DNA of 34,971 bases from Natrinema hispanicum. GTDB taxonomy: Archaea > Halobacteriota > Halobacteria > Halobacteriales > Natrialbaceae. The stretch spans positions 1 through 34,971 of the forward strand of contig NZ_FOIC01000027.1 in the NCBI RefSeq assembly GCF_900111485.1. Direction: 5' to 3'. Below the pieces are notes generated by a model. The model was given only the letters and a program-made list of their open reading frames with translations. It was not told the origin of the DNA and searched no databases. A program made the position numbers and the translations under genes. Below, piece by piece: positions 10,425 through 33,981 of the stretch (positions within the stretch are counted from its first letter, which is position 1; each line of letters begins with the position of its first letter).

Positions 10425-10991
10425 TCCGCCAAAAAGTGATTTTAAACTCCCTCAACGAAGATCAACTGTTTTACTCTTCTTACACGTCAATTCAACCAAC
10501 TCTCGCCGCTGACTGTGACGGTTTAGACACCACCATAGCTACGATCGACCGAGTCAAACGTTCGATAGCGGAACATCTGCCGAAGAGGCACTGAACTAGA
10601 CAATAGTTCTCAAGACATTTCATATCGAGAGTGAGTAGCTATACACTCTCGAGTTCACAGAAAAGCCGGCCAAAGGCCAGCATGAGGTTCTCGAAGGCCG
10701 GATGGCACTCGAAACCAGAGATCGGAGGACGAAACCAGTTGTGGATCTTGTGGAACGTACCGATCTCGGCCGGCGTGGACAAGTGTTCCCTGACTTGTGA
10801 TCGAGGAAGGGTCAACGATACAGGGGTGTAGGTTGACCCACCTTGTCCGCGCCAACCCGTCATATGCCCCATAGAAGTATCAATTTGTTCCCCAACTGTG
10901 AGGGCGTCATAGAATAGCTCGCAAGGTGGCAGATTCCAGAACTATTGGTAGTGAATTGGCTGATCAGTAGGTCTGCGAATACACCGATTGA
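10425..10991. other. Gene-poor stretch with a possible 77-codon remnant and IS-end-like sequence
   Basis: No convincing intact gene. A minus-strand frame at 10639-10872 (containing FHKIHNWFRPPISGFE) reads like a protein tail but has no recognisable family, and its surroundings are GC-rich and interrupted. At about 10905-10985 a sequence beginning gcgtcatagaatagctcgca resembles the left end of the element at 10992 (gtgtcatagaaagatccgca), and both continue to a similar gctga.cag...gcgaa block. This suggests that a decayed copy of the same type of terminus lies immediately to the left. Confidence 0.35.
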
Positions 10992-11610
10992 GAGCGTGTC
11001 ATAGAAAGATCCGCAGAGAGTTTGTTTCATCTCCCTTTGGCTGAATCAGCCGGTAAGTAGATGTGCGAACTTCTCGGGTTGAACAATCGTTAAGAAAACT
11101 TATGCAGTCTGAATATCAACTCATTCGATAAATGGATGGTACAGCAGAACTTGTATTAATAGCTACGATTTTTGTCCAATTTCTGCTTTCTGGGATTGTA
11201 TATGTAGATATGCGCCAATTTGATCTTGATGAATTTCAACGATATGATCTAGCCATTCTTGTTCCTCTTGGTGGCTTCTTAGTTCTCCCATATTATACGC
11301 TGAAAAGAGATGAGTTTGCAAAAAGTAAACAAGATTCATCTTCATATATTCATATTACTAAATCAGAATTAGCATCTGTTAGAACAAAATTGTTCGTCCT
11401 CGCTTTCATGACTGGAGTCCCTTTTAAGATGGCTGGGTCTCAAGCACCCAGCTCGGCATCTCAACTCATCCTTCTCATAATCAGTGGGATCAGCGCACTC
11501 CTTCTTTTTAGAGAGTTACGGCAGTATCAATCTGAATAGCGATTGAAAGACCTGTACTGACCGCACACTACGGAGTCGAATAGGCCTGTGACCGATTCTA
11601 TGACACGCTC
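10992..11610 (+). mobile_element. TIR-flanked passenger element without transposase
   Basis: Perfect 15-bp terminal inverted repeats gagcgtgtcatagaa (10992-11006) and its complement (11596-11610) bound 619 bp. Directly outside them lies the same heptamer cgattga (10985-10991 and 11611-11617); the next base g also matches, so the target duplication is 7-8 bp. Inside is one gene, a small membrane protein at 11132-11539, and no transposase. The structure is that of a non-autonomous element or mobile insertion cassette that would be moved in trans by an IS with the same ends. A shorter sequence with nearly the same ends lies at 17518-17666. Confidence 0.8.
11132..11539 (+). CDS. Membrane protein carried as passenger of a TIR element
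   Basis: A 135-aa protein with four likely transmembrane helices: residues about 5-24 (LVLIATIFVQFLLSGIVYV), 40-57, 88-103 and 110-126 (LILLIISGISALLLF). A charged loop (LKRDEFAKSKQDSSS) separates the two pairs. The family is not recognised; small four-helix haloarchaeal proteins of this kind are common and uncharacterised. It is AT-rich compared with the T4SS genes and lies wholly within the terminal repeats of the element at 10992-11610, so it probably moves with it. Confidence 0.72.
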   Translation: MDGTAELVLIATIFVQFLLSGIVYVDMRQFDLDEFQRYDLAILVPLGGFLVLPYYTLKRDEFAKSKQDSSSYIHITKSELASVRTKLFVLAFMTGVPFKMAGSQAPSSASQLILLIISGISALLLFRELRQYQSE

Positions 11611-11660
11611 CGATTGAGTGTAGCTCCCAAAAACACTTACTAACATAGGCAAACATATAG

Positions 11661-12038
11661 ATGATGACACCTAATAGGCGAGATTTCATTAGTAGTTTCT
11701 CGCTTGCAGTACTCGGTCTGTCTGGGTGTTTAGGCGTAAATGCTAGTGGGACAACAGATATCACTATTTCAAATGAGGCATCAAATACAGTAACCGTACA
11801 TATTCAGGTCACTCAACTCTCCAACGAGGAGCTATTGCTTGACGAAACAGCCACTATTGATGTTGATAGCACTGAGGAGTACGAGGAAGTTGTTAGTGGC
11901 TCCCAAGTCGAGGTAATCCTTAGTACAGAAGACGGCCTAGAGAACACGTATGAATGGTCTGATGGAGAGAGCGATGCAGAAGGACTTCACATCACCGTCA
12001 ATGATGAATCGATAACGTTCTCATCATTCGTTGACTAG
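11661..12038 (+). CDS. Small Tat lipoprotein
   Basis: A 125-aa protein with twin-arginine signal NRRDFISSFSLAVLG and lipobox LSGC near residue 22. The mature domain of about 100 residues is acidic and beta-rich (DITISNEASNTVTVHIQV), resembling small Ig-like haloarchaeal lipoproteins of unknown function. Two consecutive ATG codons (11661, 11664) are possible starts. It lies 50 bp beyond the right end of the TIR element, in the same AT-richer context as the other small exported proteins of the window. Confidence 0.8.
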   Translation: MMTPNRRDFISSFSLAVLGLSGCLGVNASGTTDITISNEASNTVTVHIQVTQLSNEELLLDETATIDVDSTEEYEEVVSGSQVEVILSTEDGLENTYEWSDGESDAEGLHITVNDESITFSSFVD

Positions 12039-12121
12039 AGTATCCGTACTGACCGGTAACTACGTATGCAAACTGAACGATAACCCGAAAACATATGTCT
12101 CCTCGATAAGGTATTCGCTGT

Positions 12122-12370
12122 ATGCCTGGATTCGGAATTGGTACCCCCATCTACCTTGTCATCCAAGCGTTCATTGCACGCTTCGTGTATCGTGAGGCTT
12201 CAACTCAAAACCGCCGCTCGCCGCTTGTTTTAGCCGGTAGCATCTTTATCCTGAGTATCGTTGCTGTGTTTATCGTGGGTAGTATTCTACCTGTTCTCCT
12301 TGTCGAAGCAGTGGCTATTATAATGTACCTCGCTGTTACATCTAGAAATAAACCACCTACTACACAATAA
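12122..12370 (+). CDS. Small membrane protein
   Basis: An 82-aa protein with three hydrophobic segments: an N-terminal one (IGTPIYLVIQAFIARFVY), a central one (PLVLAGSIFILSIVAVFIVGSI) and LLVEAVAIIMYLAV, with a short basic tail. No known domain is recognised. It lies 83 bp after the lipoprotein gene on the same strand, so co-transcription is possible. Confidence 0.6.
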   Translation: MPGFGIGTPIYLVIQAFIARFVYREASTQNRRSPLVLAGSIFILSIVAVFIVGSILPVLLVEAVAIIMYLAVTSRNKPPTTQ

Positions 12371-12569
12371 TCAAACACCCTCCTGTTTAACTGAGAATCA
12401 AACAGTTCTTTACCTATATTAAGCGAACAAAGGGGACGAGAATGAGGTGTGAGAATTGTTGTATGACGCCCTCCCCCAACTGTACCAAGGCGAGTGAATA
12501 TTTGCCTCGGATCAGTATGAAATGGATACTGCTCCACCTGCTGTCTTCTGAACCTCCAACCACCCTCAA

Positions 12570-13637: not shown

Positions 13638-14189
13638 CACACTCTGACCAGAAATCACTTCCCGGACAGGGTGCCACCGGAGTTACCGAACGCCACTCCC
13701 ACCCTCCACGTTGTACTGTCTGTCCCAGACGACTCGTGCGGAGACGAGTATTCGACACGGACCGTGTGTCTGAGATGTACCTCTGACTGAGCGTGAGGAC
13801 GGTTGTCCCCTGACTCTCCCCACGCCCAAGTCGCCGTTTTGATTGAAGTCATATCAGACTTTCTTAATTACCACAATATTACCCAGTGATTCATGGCGTT
13901 CTATTGGACAGGATCTCACCATGTCGATCTCACGACGATCCTCTCCTGTGAAAGAGCGATCGTGCAGATCATAACTAATCGGTCATGATCACACCCGTTG
14001 TGAGTGGGCCCAAAGCCGAAACTCCAGAACGAGCGTTAGAGGAACAAACACAGTCTCTGAAAGGGAGGGTCTTCTCTTACACCTGCAGCTATTGGTAGCG
14101 ACGACGTCGTCGGACCACGACGACGACCAGATCCGTTCGGTGTGCTCGTTAGAGAGATGCTCCCTCTCGGGATGGGTTCAACCGCTTTC
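13638..14189. other. Intergenic region, no clear gene
   Basis: No supported gene. A 65-codon minus frame at 13655-13852 and an overlapping plus frame (fragment ATPTLHVVLSVPDD) both look partly protein-like, so one may be a remnant. A short palindrome gacacg-gac-cgtgtgtc lies near 13755. No tRNA, array or long repeat is seen. Confidence 0.4.
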
Positions 14190-15089
14190 TCACACCTTTG
14201 CCCTGTCGTTCTGGGTCACAACGGGTGTGACACCACCAGTGACCTGTCCATCCGAGTCAAGCAACTCGAGGTGGTGATAACGAGACTCAAACAGTCCCTC
14301 GGCAGTCTCGATATCCATCGCAATGATCTCTTTTGGCGTCTGTTTCGCAGAGACACGCCGTTCAGTGACATCGATGTCCGAACTTCCGATCGCGATCATC
14401 TCGTTCCACACGCGCTTGAGTGTCTGTGCGTGGGGACGCTTTCCAAGGATTGCAGTAAGCGCATCCCGAACATCGTCTCGCGTCCAGAAAATGCCGCTCC
14501 CGTTCGTACGCTTGGTTGCGAACTCGTCCCAGCGCTTCATCACAAGGAGTGCCCGGAATCGGTTCTTCCGCGGTGTCCCCTGGTCGACGAGATGTTTTTT
14601 GACACGGTGCTGGCGGCAGTTCGCAAGGAAATCCAATGGACTGCTCGAGGGTTCGATGCCGCCGGGCAGTTCCTCTGGATCCTCGCGGTCGAACGCAGTC
14701 TCACCGGTCTCGGCGATTGATTTGGCCTGCTCAGCGTTCGCGTTTGCAGTCTTCGCGATTTCCTTTGCTTGGTCAGCCGTCTCGTCGGTTTCGGCAACCG
14801 ACTCGGTGATCTCGTGGAGTTGACTGGCGATCTCCTTTCGGTTGCGATCAGCGCGATTCTGTTCTTGCTGGAGTTCGTCGACACGCTCCTCGAGGCAGTC
14901 GATCGTCTGCACCAGTTCTTGGATGATGGCCCACATCTCTACGCGACTCGGGAGTTCATCATCACCGTCGTCGGCCGTTGGATCAGTGCTGGTGTGCGTA
15001 TCGACGCTGTCGAAGCCAAGAGCGGCGGCAACGTCGTGATTAGTGGGCGTTTCTGCGTCAACTGCGTCCGGATCTTTTCCAATTGTCAT
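14190..15089 (-). CDS. Coiled-coil protein with C-terminal helical domain, plasmid-type
   Basis: A 299-aa protein starting at ATG 15089 (MTIGKDPDAVDAE); longer in-frame starts upstream would read through an Arg/Ser/Thr-rich leader typical of non-coding GC-rich DNA. Residues about 1-50 are acidic and disordered. Residues about 55-135 form a coiled coil (IIQELVQTIDCLEERVDELQQEQN) continuing into Ala/Glu/Lys heptads. Residues about 160-240 look like a helical, possibly winged-helix domain (FRALLVMKRWDEFATKRT, VRDALTAILGKRPHAQTLKRVWNEM), then beta strands to the end. It could be a DNA-binding structural or segregation protein, but I do not recognise the family. Confidence 0.7.
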   Translation of the reverse strand: MTIGKDPDAVDAETPTNHDVAAALGFDSVDTHTSTDPTADDGDDELPSRVEMWAIIQELVQTIDCLEERVDELQQEQNRADRNRKEIASQLHEITESVAETDETADQAKEIAKTANANAEQAKSIAETGETAFDREDPEELPGGIEPSSSPLDFLANCRQHRVKKHLVDQGTPRKNRFRALLVMKRWDEFATKRTNGSGIFWTRDDVRDALTAILGKRPHAQTLKRVWNEMIAIGSSDIDVTERRVSAKQTPKEIIAMDIETAEGLFESRYHHLELLDSDGQVTGGVTPVVTQNDRAKV

Positions 15090-17517: not shown

Positions 17518-17666
17518 GAGCGTGTCATACAATGGTTCTCAACAGCTATTATTCACTGCATATGTATTGAACAAATCGGGTGAATGGCGAAACTACAGGC
17601 TCATACGCAAATTGAGAGCTGTATAATCGTCAGGTAGAGGGTGTGAGTTGTATTCTATGACACGCT
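17518..17666. mobile_element. Short MITE-like sequence with the same ends as the 10992 element
   Basis: The left end gagcgtgtcatacaa (17518-17532) matches the terminus of the element at 10992-11610 in 14 of 15 positions. The right end ttctatgacacgct (17653-17666) is the inverted complement of the same terminus. The interior (about 120 bp) has no gene and is unrelated at sight to the larger element. I could not see a target-site duplication, so it is old or one end has been altered. Confidence 0.6.
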
Positions 17667-17694
17667 GGTATATTCGAGTTATCAAACTGATAGT

Positions 17695-25579: not shown

Positions 25580-26722
25580 TCAGCCACGAACGTCGTCAAT
25601 CGAATCGGAGACGTCCTTCATCTTGACGTCGGCGTAGGCCTCGTGAGTAGTCTCGATCGAGTTGTGTCGTAACGCTTCCTGAGCCTTTTCCGACATCCCG
25701 CTGGTATAGAGGTCGCGCCCGAGTGCCCGCCGAGCGCCATGCAGCGTCAGATAGTCGTACTCGCCGTCCGGATCGATTCCGGCTTCGTCGGTGAGCCGTT
25801 TCAGCAGTCGGCGAACGCCCTCTTTCGATATCGACGGCGGCGGAACCTCGTGCTCGCGGTGTAGACAGTCAAGCACCTCGGTCTTCCTGGCGTCACCCCT
25901 ATCCTCGAGCGCCCGAGAGACTGCCTTCTCGCCGAGTGCATCCTCGAGTGTGCTCTTTTTCGAGCCGTAGTGACCGGTCGGAAAGACGGGCCACGCTTCG
26001 GTCGTCGGCTCTTGCACCCGGTACCATCGCTTGAGGACGTCGTGGACACTCGCAGGAAACGGAGCCTGTTCGTACTCACGTGATTTGCCGTAGACTTCGA
26101 TCAGCCGTTCGTCGAAATCGACGTCCTTCCACCGGAGGCCGTTACGCTTGTCGTCTTTCGGATCAGCGAACAACTCAGCACCACGCGCCCCTGTCCCGTC
26201 GAGCATGACGACGGTCGCCCGGTCACGGAAGGCCGCCTCTACATCGGTCCGGATGGTTCCCTCGAGAGCCATGTCCACGCGCTTGGTGGCGTACTCGAGC
26301 AACGTCTCGCGGTCCTCGGCGCTCCAGTACTGGCGCTTGCGTTTCCCATCGTCCTCTGGCAGCGGGTCCATCGCGGTGTTCGTATTTGCCGGGTTCGACT
26401 CGAGGTGTTGTTCTCGCACCGACCAGGAGAGAAAAGCTCGGACGTAGGCGAAGTAGTTGTGGGCGGTTGAAGCCGCCAGGTTCTCGTCGATTACGACGCG
26501 GTCGTAGAGGTGCTCGCTGTAACTGCGGACATCGTGGGGTGTGAGGTCGTCGACGAACTCGAGATCACGCTCGTCTCGACAGTGGTCGGCGAACTCGAGT
26601 AGTGGTGAGCGCATGGTCGTCTTCGAACCGTCGGCGTTGATCTTATAGCGCAGGTAGCTCTCAATGGCCTCGTGGACGGTTGTGCCCCCACGTGTAGCCC
26701 GTCGATCCGTTGATCCAGACAT
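25580..26722 (-). CDS. Tyrosine recombinase/integrase
   Basis: A 380-aa XerC/D-like site-specific recombinase. An N-terminal SAM-like core-binding domain (about 15-115, with AIESYLRYK and STAHNYFAYVRAFLSWSV) precedes the catalytic domain. Catalytic residues visible are Arg180 (DGTGARGAELF), a likely Lys in the beta hairpin near 213, His328 and Arg331 (TLHGARRAL), His353 (LRHNSIETTH) and nucleophile Tyr363 (EAYADV). The first motif has Ala where many relatives have Leu, but the core set is complete. The start at 26722 lies 39 bp downstream of a 9-bp palindrome that overlaps a TATA-like element. It may resolve replicon multimers or integrate an element; no att site is evident. Confidence 0.93.
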   Translation of the reverse strand: MSGSTDRRATRGGTTVHEAIESYLRYKINADGSKTTMRSPLLEFADHCRDERDLEFVDDLTPHDVRSYSEHLYDRVVIDENLAASTAHNYFAYVRAFLSWSVREQHLESNPANTNTAMDPLPEDDGKRKRQYWSAEDRETLLEYATKRVDMALEGTIRTDVEAAFRDRATVVMLDGTGARGAELFADPKDDKRNGLRWKDVDFDERLIEVYGKSREYEQAPFPASVHDVLKRWYRVQEPTTEAWPVFPTGHYGSKKSTLEDALGEKAVSRALEDRGDARKTEVLDCLHREHEVPPPSISKEGVRRLLKRLTDEAGIDPDGEYDYLTLHGARRALGRDLYTSGMSEKAQEALRHNSIETTHEAYADVKMKDVSDSIDDVRG

Positions 26723-31361: not shown

Positions 31362-31998
31362 CGAGCTGACACTCGTCGCGAATTGGCCAGATTCATTCGT
31401 GGGATATCTCAAAGCCACTCCCTCCCCCCGTCATCGATGTGTAAAACTGTGCAGAAGGAGTGGAGGTAAGAACGAGAAAGTTCCTAAAACCATCAATACC
31501 CCCAGAAACTCGCCAGAGACAGGCCCAAGATCAAGAATTGCGTTTGAATAACGAATGCCTAATATCTAGGAAAGTTTTATGTGTGATACACGATAACCAG
31601 ATCCGTAGTAGAACTAAGAACAAGAGTTAGGAAGAATACACTTCGACTAACCGAACATCGACAACATCTATTGTAGCTCTTGTTCCATTCGCTTTCAGTG
31701 TCGTTTTCAGGACTCTCGTAGTCTCTTTTCCTCATCGAGCCTTCATCATCACCAGACAGAAACCCACCTTCCCGTGATTTACACATCGATGACGGGGGGA
31801 GGGGGTCACGAATTCTCCTGAACGTTTTCTCTCGCATATCTCCTGACCCTGACAAAGACTACGTGTTGCTCTTAATTCAGTCTGATCGACGATCGGTGTC
31901 TCCACTTCTCTTGAGTACCTTGCCTCCTAGCAGGTCGGGTTTACACATCGAACACGGGGGGAGGGGCACACAAAACAGTCTCTGAATGCCTAATTGTC
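31362..31998. repeat. Origin region downstream of orc1: three ORB-like boxes
   Basis: Boxes combining a pyrimidine/G-run with catcgatgtgtaaa occur at 31418-31446 (C-run then tcatcgatgtgtaaa), 31776-31806 (tttacacatcgatgac then two G-runs) and 31940-31966 (tttacacatcgaacac then G-run). The second and third are in the same orientation, opposite to the first. AT-rich DNA lies between 31540 and 31690, a possible unwinding region. No gene is supported here; a 92-codon minus frame runs through the boxes and is rejected. Confidence 0.75.
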
Positions 31999-33456
31999 CT
32001 ACTGCTTGTGGAACTCATTCAGTTGTGCGTTGACGACTGTCTGGAGGAGATTCTTTTGCTCAACGATCCTCTCTAACCGCGTGTCGTCGACGATCCGGTT
32101 CATTATCGCTTCCGGATCTCCCGTGAAAGTAAATTCCATGTACATTCCTCCTCCTCGTCCTCGACTCTTTCGCGATGTCGAAATCAATCCATAGGTAGAG
32201 AGTTCTTTGACGTATTTGACGTACGTTTCTCGCGTCATCTGGTCCGCATCGAGTTCATCAGTGACCCACTGATAGACTTTGAATCCAACCGGACTTGGGA
32301 CAGAACTCCCTATCTGTTTCGAGTAGCAGACGACAGCTGCGGTCGCGTACAGCGAGATTTTCTTTTGCGTGGTAAGTCCCTCCACGAGTTTCAGTGAGCG
32401 ATCTTTGTCAATCTCCTCTTGCGACTCACGAACGTGGTCCTCTGTGACTATCTCGTCTCCACGCTCATCAGCAAGGTCACCAGCACCTCGGAAGAGGTCG
32501 ATAGCCTTTCGTGCGTCACCGTGGCTTTGCGCTGCGAACGCTGCCACAAGCGGAATCACGTCATCCTCGAGGGCGTCTTGTCGGAAGGCGTCACGACGAT
32601 TTTCGAGGATTTCACGCAACTGGTTCGCATCGTAGTCAGGAAAGTAGATGTCTCGTGGGTTGAACGAACTCTCGGCCCGTCCGTCGATGTCCTCCATGAA
32701 CTTCGGGTCATTCGTCAATGCTGCGACCGAGACACGCCCTTCAATTTCGTTCGTATTACTCGCGCGCGACAGCTGATACAGTAGCTTCGAATAGGCGGGT
32801 TCTTCGTTTGCTCGGCGGCCGACAAGCAGGTCGATCTCGTCGAGGATAAAGATGACTGAGTCGTAGTATTCGTTGATGAGTTCGTACAGCCGTCTGTACT
32901 TGCGCTTCGTGGAGACACCCGTTTCAGGAACGCCGATGTCGACATCGACATCTTTCGCGACGGTCTGGACGAGTTCATAGACCGCTTGGTCCAGAGTATT
33001 AATCGGCTGGCAGTTGATATCGACGACTCCAAACCGTTCTCCCTTCGACTTACAGAGTTCGATGATCTGTTTTGTGACTGCCCCGATGATGAGTGATTTC
33101 CCCGTCCCGGCGGGCCCGTACAGTAGCATGTTCGGAGGGCGATTTCCTTGGAGGGTCGGCTTCAGAAACGAAACGACCGATTCGAGCTGATCGTCACGAC
33201 CAACTATCCGTTCTTCGTCGATTATCGTGTCTGGCTCAACGAGATCTCGATTGACGAAAACCGATGATTCCCCCTCATCGTCGAGCATTTCCCGAATCGA
33301 TCGCTGGGTACTATCTTTAGTAGATGCGTTCCTTTCGGATGCACCCTCGTCTGTGGACGCCCCACCAGACGTGTTTGTTTGCCCACCGCCATCTTCTGAC
33401 CGAGTTCCACCATCGAGAGTAGATTGATTCGCACCATCCTGATTACTACCGACCAT
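31999..33456 (-). CDS. orc: Orc1/Cdc6 replication initiator
   Basis: A protein of about 485 aa starting at ATG 33456 (MVGSNQDGANQ); the ATG at 33498 is upstream of a TATA-like ttttta (about 33480), which would give a leaderless start near 33456. After a disordered Gly/Ser/Thr/Asp-rich N-terminus (about 60 residues) comes the AAA+ domain: Walker A LLYGPAGTGKS near 115, Walker B FILDEIDLL near 205, sensor 1 AALTNDP, sensor 2 region HGDARKAIDLFRGAG. A C-terminal winged helix (about 380-470, with RETYVKYVKELSTYGLIS) follows and binds the origin boxes. Boxes lie on both sides of the gene, so this is probably the initiator of the replicon. Confidence 0.95.
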   Translation of the reverse strand: MVGSNQDGANQSTLDGGTRSEDGGGQTNTSGGASTDEGASERNASTKDSTQRSIREMLDDEGESSVFVNRDLVEPDTIIDEERIVGRDDQLESVVSFLKPTLQGNRPPNMLLYGPAGTGKSLIIGAVTKQIIELCKSKGERFGVVDINCQPINTLDQAVYELVQTVAKDVDVDIGVPETGVSTKRKYRRLYELINEYYDSVIFILDEIDLLVGRRANEEPAYSKLLYQLSRASNTNEIEGRVSVAALTNDPKFMEDIDGRAESSFNPRDIYFPDYDANQLREILENRRDAFRQDALEDDVIPLVAAFAAQSHGDARKAIDLFRGAGDLADERGDEIVTEDHVRESQEEIDKDRSLKLVEGLTTQKKISLYATAAVVCYSKQIGSSVPSPVGFKVYQWVTDELDADQMTRETYVKYVKELSTYGLISTSRKSRGRGGGMYMEFTFTGDPEAIMNRIVDDTRLERIVEQKNLLQTVVNAQLNEFHKQ

Positions 33457-33981
33457 ATACTTGCTGCTCAATCCAGCACTAAAAAGATTTACCCCCATCG
33501 ATGTTTATCCGGAGGATATAGAGTGTATAACGCGAGTATTCGCCTGTTTCAAGTCACAGGTGAGTAGACCTCTACCGAAGTATATCCGTCCGGAGGCCCC
33601 CCGTCGTCGATGTGTAAATCGAGCCCCCTCGATTTTCTATGAATCTGTACATTATGGTTCTGTCACTATGCTCTCCACTCCCCGCCATCGATGTGTAAGC
33701 CATGCGTCTGACACCCCGTCTTCGAAGTGTAAATATCATCCCACACCCCCCACCATCGATGTGAAAAACGGCTCTTTCTGACATTCTCTGTGATGCTTCC
33801 TGCTGATTTTTGATTCGTACACGGGAGCTAAGCCTGACTTCCAAGCTTACTACTCGAAAGCGGGGGAGGAATGTTAATATTCTTCTCAAACTACTCGTCC
33901 AGTCTGACGGGTCCTTTATATCGTGATTGTCTGGTATTCTGAGGTTCGATCAGTGGACGCCGGCTACCCTGCGCTGGGCGC
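33457..33981. repeat. Origin region upstream of orc1: five ORB-like boxes
   Basis: Boxes of the same type, all with the C-run first: 33488-33510 (cccccatcgatgtttat, weaker), 33595-33620 (ccccccgtcgtcgatgtgta), 33671-33700 (ccccgccatcgatgtgtaag), 33705-33735 (ccccgtcttcgaagtgtaaa) and 33740-33769 (ccccccaccatcgatgtgaa). The first overlaps the orc1 promoter, so Orc1 may autoregulate. The AT-rich piece 33620-33660 could be the unwinding element. From 33790 to 33981 nothing is recognised. Confidence 0.8.

Follow-up and report, generated by a model that had tools for sequence, protein, structure and literature searches.

The 34,971-nucleotide stretch of Natrinema hispanicum DNA analysed here (the window) contains, at positions 10992 to 11610, a unit with the ends of an insertion sequence (IS) and no transposase. 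This raises the question of what kind of element it is, and how the gene it contains came to lie between such ends. The original prediction described it as a clean mobile insertion cassette, with perfect 15-bp terminal inverted repeats, a 7-8 bp direct duplication outside and one intact non-transposase gene inside. The repeats were confirmed both by reading and by script, the duplication is the heptamer CGATTGA on either side, and the single intact gene-sized open reading frame encodes a 135-residue membrane protein. The features of this inner element are:

10985..10991, no strand: target duplication CGATTGA, left copy
10992..11610, + strand: inner transposase-less element, 619 bp, with terminal repeats, duplication and an intact site in genome G008
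10992..11006, + strand: inner left terminal inverted repeat, GAGCGTGTCATAGAA
11132..11539, + strand: 135-aa membrane protein gene (the passenger), an open reading frame with 82-96% identical copies
11596..11610, - strand: inner right terminal inverted repeat, the exact reverse complement of GAGCGTGTCATAGAA
11611..11617, no strand: target duplication CGATTGA, right copy

The duplication measures 7 bp, or 9 bp if the terminal G/C is assigned to the target. A perfect 15-bp inverted repeat combined with a 7-bp duplication, at a spacing of 100-3000 bp, is found in the window at the inner element alone, and in none of 200 mononucleotide-shuffled versions of the window. The terminal motif, with up to two mismatches, occurs at 45 places in the 3.96-Mb genome, compared with 3 for its reversed control. 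In G008 the inner element is absent and the target is uninterrupted, with one heptamer, CGACTGA; an empty site with a single heptamer is what the original prediction had proposed to look for. The 619 bp are not confined to one fixed position with their flanks, which the prediction had named as the case against it: the passenger recurs elsewhere, though genome G007 contains the whole nested locus at 100% identity. The unit at 10992-11610 is a genuine mobile insertion cassette, to which it can be added that its ends are those of full-length IS copies in the same genome. Named plasmid records gave no DNA match to the window element, and one weak match to the passenger protein. The passenger matches no Pfam, NCBIfam or PADLOC family, which leaves the proposed selectable or addictive trait unsupported. 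Two other inverted repeats are present in the window. One, at 13989-14230, has perfect 15-bp repeats without a 7-bp duplication; the other, at 31420-31803, is perfect, with arms of about 26 bp and about 384 bp overall, and adjoins an Orc1/Cdc6 gene (31999-33498), possibly forming a replication origin.

The description as a clean, single-passenger cassette is incomplete, since the inner element is nested in a second, outer element, overlooked in the original prediction, and since its passenger is a separable module that occurs with other ends and in other places. The outer element carries two genes, for a lipoprotein-like protein of 125 aa and a membrane protein of 82 aa, and its boundaries are:

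10890-10899 and 12474-12483: outer 10-bp target duplication, CCCCAACTGT
10900..12473, + strand: outer transposase-less element, 1574 bp including the inner element, with terminal repeats and duplication; identical in G007
10900..10914, + strand: outer left terminal inverted repeat, GAGGGCGTCATAGAA
12459..12473, - strand: outer right terminal inverted repeat, TTGTATGACGCCCTC on the + strand

On contig C90 of G008 (locus L076, 1501-1609), the outer left end and its upstream flank are kept, followed, inside the START region described below, by sequence from further downstream in the window; this arrangement is a deletion ending at the junction.

Full-length partners for these ends are present in the source genome (G000). 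Its contig C37 contains a 1069-bp IS with the same 15-bp ends, the duplication CATTGGT and a 332-aa DDE transposase, and contig C73 a second full-length copy of 1068 bp with closely matching ends; both encode a DDE_Tnp_1 transposase (330-332 aa). Plasmid relatives are named IS5-like ISNpe2, ISHti7 and ISHla6. NCBIfam scores are below cut-off on the IS1182, IS982 and IS5 models, so that the group within IS5 is set by the named relatives and not by a model. The transposase-less elements (carriers) match the full-length IS over only about 17 bp, beyond which the subterminal DNA differs; they have conserved ends of their own, about 75 bp on the left and 59 bp on the right, which recur in dozens of elements across the genus. 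Since full-length IS copies with the same ends are present in the genome, the carriers are likely moved in trans by an ISNpe2-like transposase, a reading that follows from the shared ends and that the anatomy of the carriers supports well. The carriers hold one to three cassettes.

Several further arrangements of these ends were observed. A MITE of 150 bp at 17518-17667 of the window shares the terminal motif (GAGCGTGTCATACAA / TTCTATGACACGCTG), and pairs of 150-151 bp resembling it recur in G005 and G007; as an empty carrier frame this MITE was rejected, as it contains no START or END site. On contig C37 of the source genome, the full-length ISNpe2-like copy (L048, 288-539 and 527-1595) lies within an apparent CRISPR array, with a repeat like TAGAAACCCAGAACGGGATTGAAAC on both sides. 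On contig C6 of G007, a carrier of the 82-aa cassette has a left end on each side, the two being oppositely oriented (L073, 1443 and 1933), showing that mixed ends exist.

The genes inside the carriers recur independently of the carrier ends. In G021, the 135-aa passenger is found at another place with 513 bp, from START to END, 97% identical, and there the surrounding IS ends are merely 66% and 63% identical. Four further copies of the 82-aa module (in L065, L073, L074 and L075) are 94-95% identical and have the same edges, making five contexts in total; one copy is located elsewhere in the source genome, on contig C49, without an IS frame. A free copy of the lipoprotein module, 97% identical, is found on a G008 contig outside any IS frame, the homology starting inside the START of the lipoprotein cassette, and a 74-aa module is 98% identical between the source genome and G283, which belongs to a different genus. 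Recurrence with other ends and at other places makes the passenger a separable module.

Each passenger cassette has a START half-site, CGGTAACTACGTGTGC, at its beginning and an END half-site, CCTGTACTGAMCG, at its close. The conserved edge junction, cCTGTACTGAcCGGtAACTACGTgTGCgaAC, divides into an END half and a START half; the halves are fused between modules in arrays, and at the outer edges of an array one half is locus-specific. The cassettes in the window are delimited as follows:

10961..10985, + strand: START half-site of the lipoprotein cassette, score 19.2, with the inner element interrupting just downstream
11051..11075, + strand: START half-site of the 135-aa cassette, weight-matrix score 30.4
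11551..11563, + strand: END half-site of the 135-aa cassette, weight-matrix score 22.8
11661..12038, + strand: 125-aa lipoprotein-like gene, second cassette, with a free copy in G008
12043..12078, + strand: fused END-START junction between the lipoprotein and 82-aa cassettes
12122..12370, + strand: 82-aa membrane protein gene, third cassette, with copies in L065, L073, L074 and L075
12413..12425, + strand: degenerate END half-site, CCTATATTAAGCG, of the 82-aa cassette, read from the sequence; cassette edge

The scans for half-sites covered retrieved loci and pattern searches. The half-site matrices, which were trained on part of the scored loci, give a single match in 95 kb of control DNA. Neighbouring half-sites lie on the same strand in 140 cases and on opposite strands in 11. 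On the same strand, START and END alternate in 124 cases and fail to do so in 16 (in shuffled data, 45.5 alternating on average and 64 at most); as fused junctions were the reason for including many of the loci, this alternation is partly selection and the END-to-START count is inflated. The START-to-END count, 63 vs 8 and 8, is less touched by the choice of loci. A half-site lies within 20 bp of 24.6% of alignment ends, compared with 4.7% of random points.

At fixed places, different cassettes are found in different genomes. At one chromosomal locus, with flanks mostly 87-94% identical, no two of five genomes have the same insert. One contains the 82-aa gene, and the other four contain, respectively, a further small membrane protein, a lipoprotein, a DoxX-like membrane protein and a sequence without open reading frame, these labels being interpretations of the translations. 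About nine homologous plasmid backbones, 85-96% identical, were compared at four intergenic spots, A to D. At spots A to C, backbone conservation generally ends at START on one side and at END on the other, and the interiors between them measure 424-3424 bp; at spot D the edges are less regular. In several backbones the IS carrier at spot A is retained with its GGTTAGG duplication, and the cassettes inside differ. Spot C of contig C41 in the source genome contains a homologue of the window passenger, 82% identical. Neither the C49 locus nor the compared plasmid backbones showed an empty spot, and the genus candidates from the pattern search included no empty IS frame; homologous recombination between similar flanks could therefore explain the same-spot swaps.

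In all, 103 cassettes were counted, about 79 of them distinct, and arrays of four to six cassettes exist. Distinct cassettes of 200-900 bp number 55. A transmembrane protein is predicted in 49% of these, compared with 6% of random intervals from the same loci, and a transmembrane protein or lipobox in 56%, compared with 7%. This contrast is approximate, since prediction relied on a simple hydropathy window and the random intervals frequently cut through genes. HalOD1, DUF7511 and DUF7344 proteins are also among the cargo. None of nine cassette proteins gave a PADLOC match indicative of a defence role. We infer that the cargo is retained for a membrane-related advantage. Some cassettes are without open reading frames: a GC-rich one (CCAACCTTTTGCTCTGCGCTCCC...) is found in L054, L064, L164 and L188, in several genomes and two genera, and another of about 170 bp is common to L180 and L188. 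At the ends of two arrays (L259, 4500-4560, and L257, 4330-4400), a pair of END halves lie 25 bp from each other, which may represent a cassette without content. When two copies of one carrier in G007 (L120 and L121) are compared, an insertion of about 100 bp with palindromic ends (AGGGATCAG...CTGATCCCT) is seen to adjoin END.

Of the 392 genomes of the order, 31 contain fused junctions with up to two mismatches, and every one of these belongs to the same family as the window; the reversed control is found in none. A looser search of the family found junctions in 38 genomes out of 125 and in 11 of the 29 genera. Exact sites occur in Natrinema hispanicum, N. zhouii, Haloarchaeobius sp. FL176 and Natronorubrum thiooxidans, and in none of the viral contigs. 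Variant sites (CTGAACTAACCG...) were observed in other families: in G241 (L091, 409-860) there are two copies 426 bp apart, and in G248 (L113, 1707) one directly follows a homologue of the passenger. This suggests that an altered form of the cassette system is present in other families.

Our reading, which we consider probable, is that two layers are stacked at this locus, IS5-family carriers moved in trans and START/END cassettes exchanged as units. In the first layer, the inner and outer units would be non-autonomous carriers with IS5-family (ISNpe2-like) ends, which the full-length IS copies would move in trans, making duplications of 7-10 bp. In the second, cassettes would swap as units among IS frames, intergenic spots of plasmids and chromosomal spots, and tandem arrays joined by the fused END-START junction would be the result. 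This exchange would most likely be performed by a trans-acting recombinase at the short START/END sites; no recombinase was found, so the mechanism of cassette exchange is one that we infer. Recombination at short sites is favoured because unrelated contexts share just the ends of about 25-35 bp. Genes of the Phage_integrase family (PF00589) are present in all genomes searched and lie within about 5 kb of only a handful of sites. The integrase gene of the window (25580-26722) is located 13 kb from the element, and its presence there does not speak for a link.

The serious rival, for the same-spot swaps in particular, is ordinary homologous or microhomology-mediated recombination, for which the conserved ends would be hot-spots of shared sequence. 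The long homologous flanks at the swapped spots, the lack of empty spots at the compared loci and the failure to find a recombinase all agree with it. Against this, the 82-aa, 135-aa and lipoprotein cassettes have moved across IS frame, chromosome and plasmid with only the ends of 25-35 bp in common, and END and START are specifically conserved, in one orientation; as a general account we regard it as rather unlikely. The sites are imperfect direct-repeat palindromes of about 22 bp that resemble those of the Haloquadratum PATEs (PMC3119063), and one TnpA-TnpB element adjoins a site on contig C78 of the source genome, so that the cassettes might be IS200/IS605-derived PATEs, with the near-terminal palindromes as sites at which a Y1 transposase moves them. 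This origin is disfavoured, and seems very improbable to us, as no convincing site was found at 30 TnpB loci, a Y1 transposase is absent from G023 and G028, both rich in sites, and the sites fold no better than shuffled sequences. Lastly, haloarchaea commonly have MITEs inserted within other mobile elements (PMC3119063), and the inner unit could be a decayed IS with an accidental gene, the remainder being coincidental nested insertions; however, the subterminal DNA is unlike that of the full-length IS past about 17 bp and the same cassettes recur with the same edges outside IS ends, which makes this explanation hardly credible.

On the reading with two stacked layers, transposons would serve to carry a second system of exchange that is independent of them. 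We give even chances to the START/END cassettes of small membrane proteins, lipoproteins and regulators being a so far undescribed haloarchaeal system, worked by a site-specific recombinase and analogous, though unrelated, to integrons; the cassette layer is possibly a new class of modular cassette system. If true, it would explain the spread and diversification of many orphan genes for small membrane proteins and lipoproteins, and it would offer a new recombinase for discovery and perhaps a genetic tool. With the site sequence known, the cassette system can be tested now in cultured species.

Gene exchange is frequent among haloarchaea, but no haloarchaeal modular cassette system was found described in the literature covered, which mostly excluded subscription journals. 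Integron gene cassettes have been reported in archaeal MAGs (PMC9668308). Like these, the cassettes described here are small gene units in tandem, with one recombination-like site per junction and exchange at fixed loci; they differ in that the sites of about 36 bp have no single-strand fold, the genes are in either orientation and the arrays occur at many scattered spots. Identity with integron attC sites was rejected, the z-scores of eight folded junction sequences being -0.7 to +1.1, and a search with Phage_integrase, which is not an IntI-specific domain, identified no integron integrase next to the arrays. In the pdif modules of Acinetobacter plasmids, short sites likewise part gene modules from one another and from a conserved plasmid backbone, and modules are shuffled; however, the bounding sites of pdif modules are inversely oriented (PMC13141974), whereas ours are directly oriented. 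The Haloquadratum PATEs of IS605 type (PMC3119063) are also transposase-free, with short direct-repeat palindromes near both ends, but our cassettes have no link to TnpA or TnpB. IS5-family insertion sequences of the ISNpe2 type resemble the full-length copies here, which are 1068-1070 bp long with a DDE transposase and the same terminal repeats. For ISH11 itself (copies of 1074-1077 bp, duplications of 6-9 bp), length and duplication suggest a possible relation. The carriers differ from ISNpe2- and ISH11-type IS in lacking a transposase and in having left and right ends of their own. An archaeal precedent for a MITE mobilised in trans is ISH2, moved by ISH8 in Halobacterium (PMC10264941). With ISH2, and with the MICs of bacteria and MITEs generally, the carriers share the lack of a transposase, the IS ends, the target duplication and a full-length partner IS in the genome; they differ from MICs and MITEs in that their cargo, of one to three cassettes per carrier, is exchangeable between carriers with different ends.
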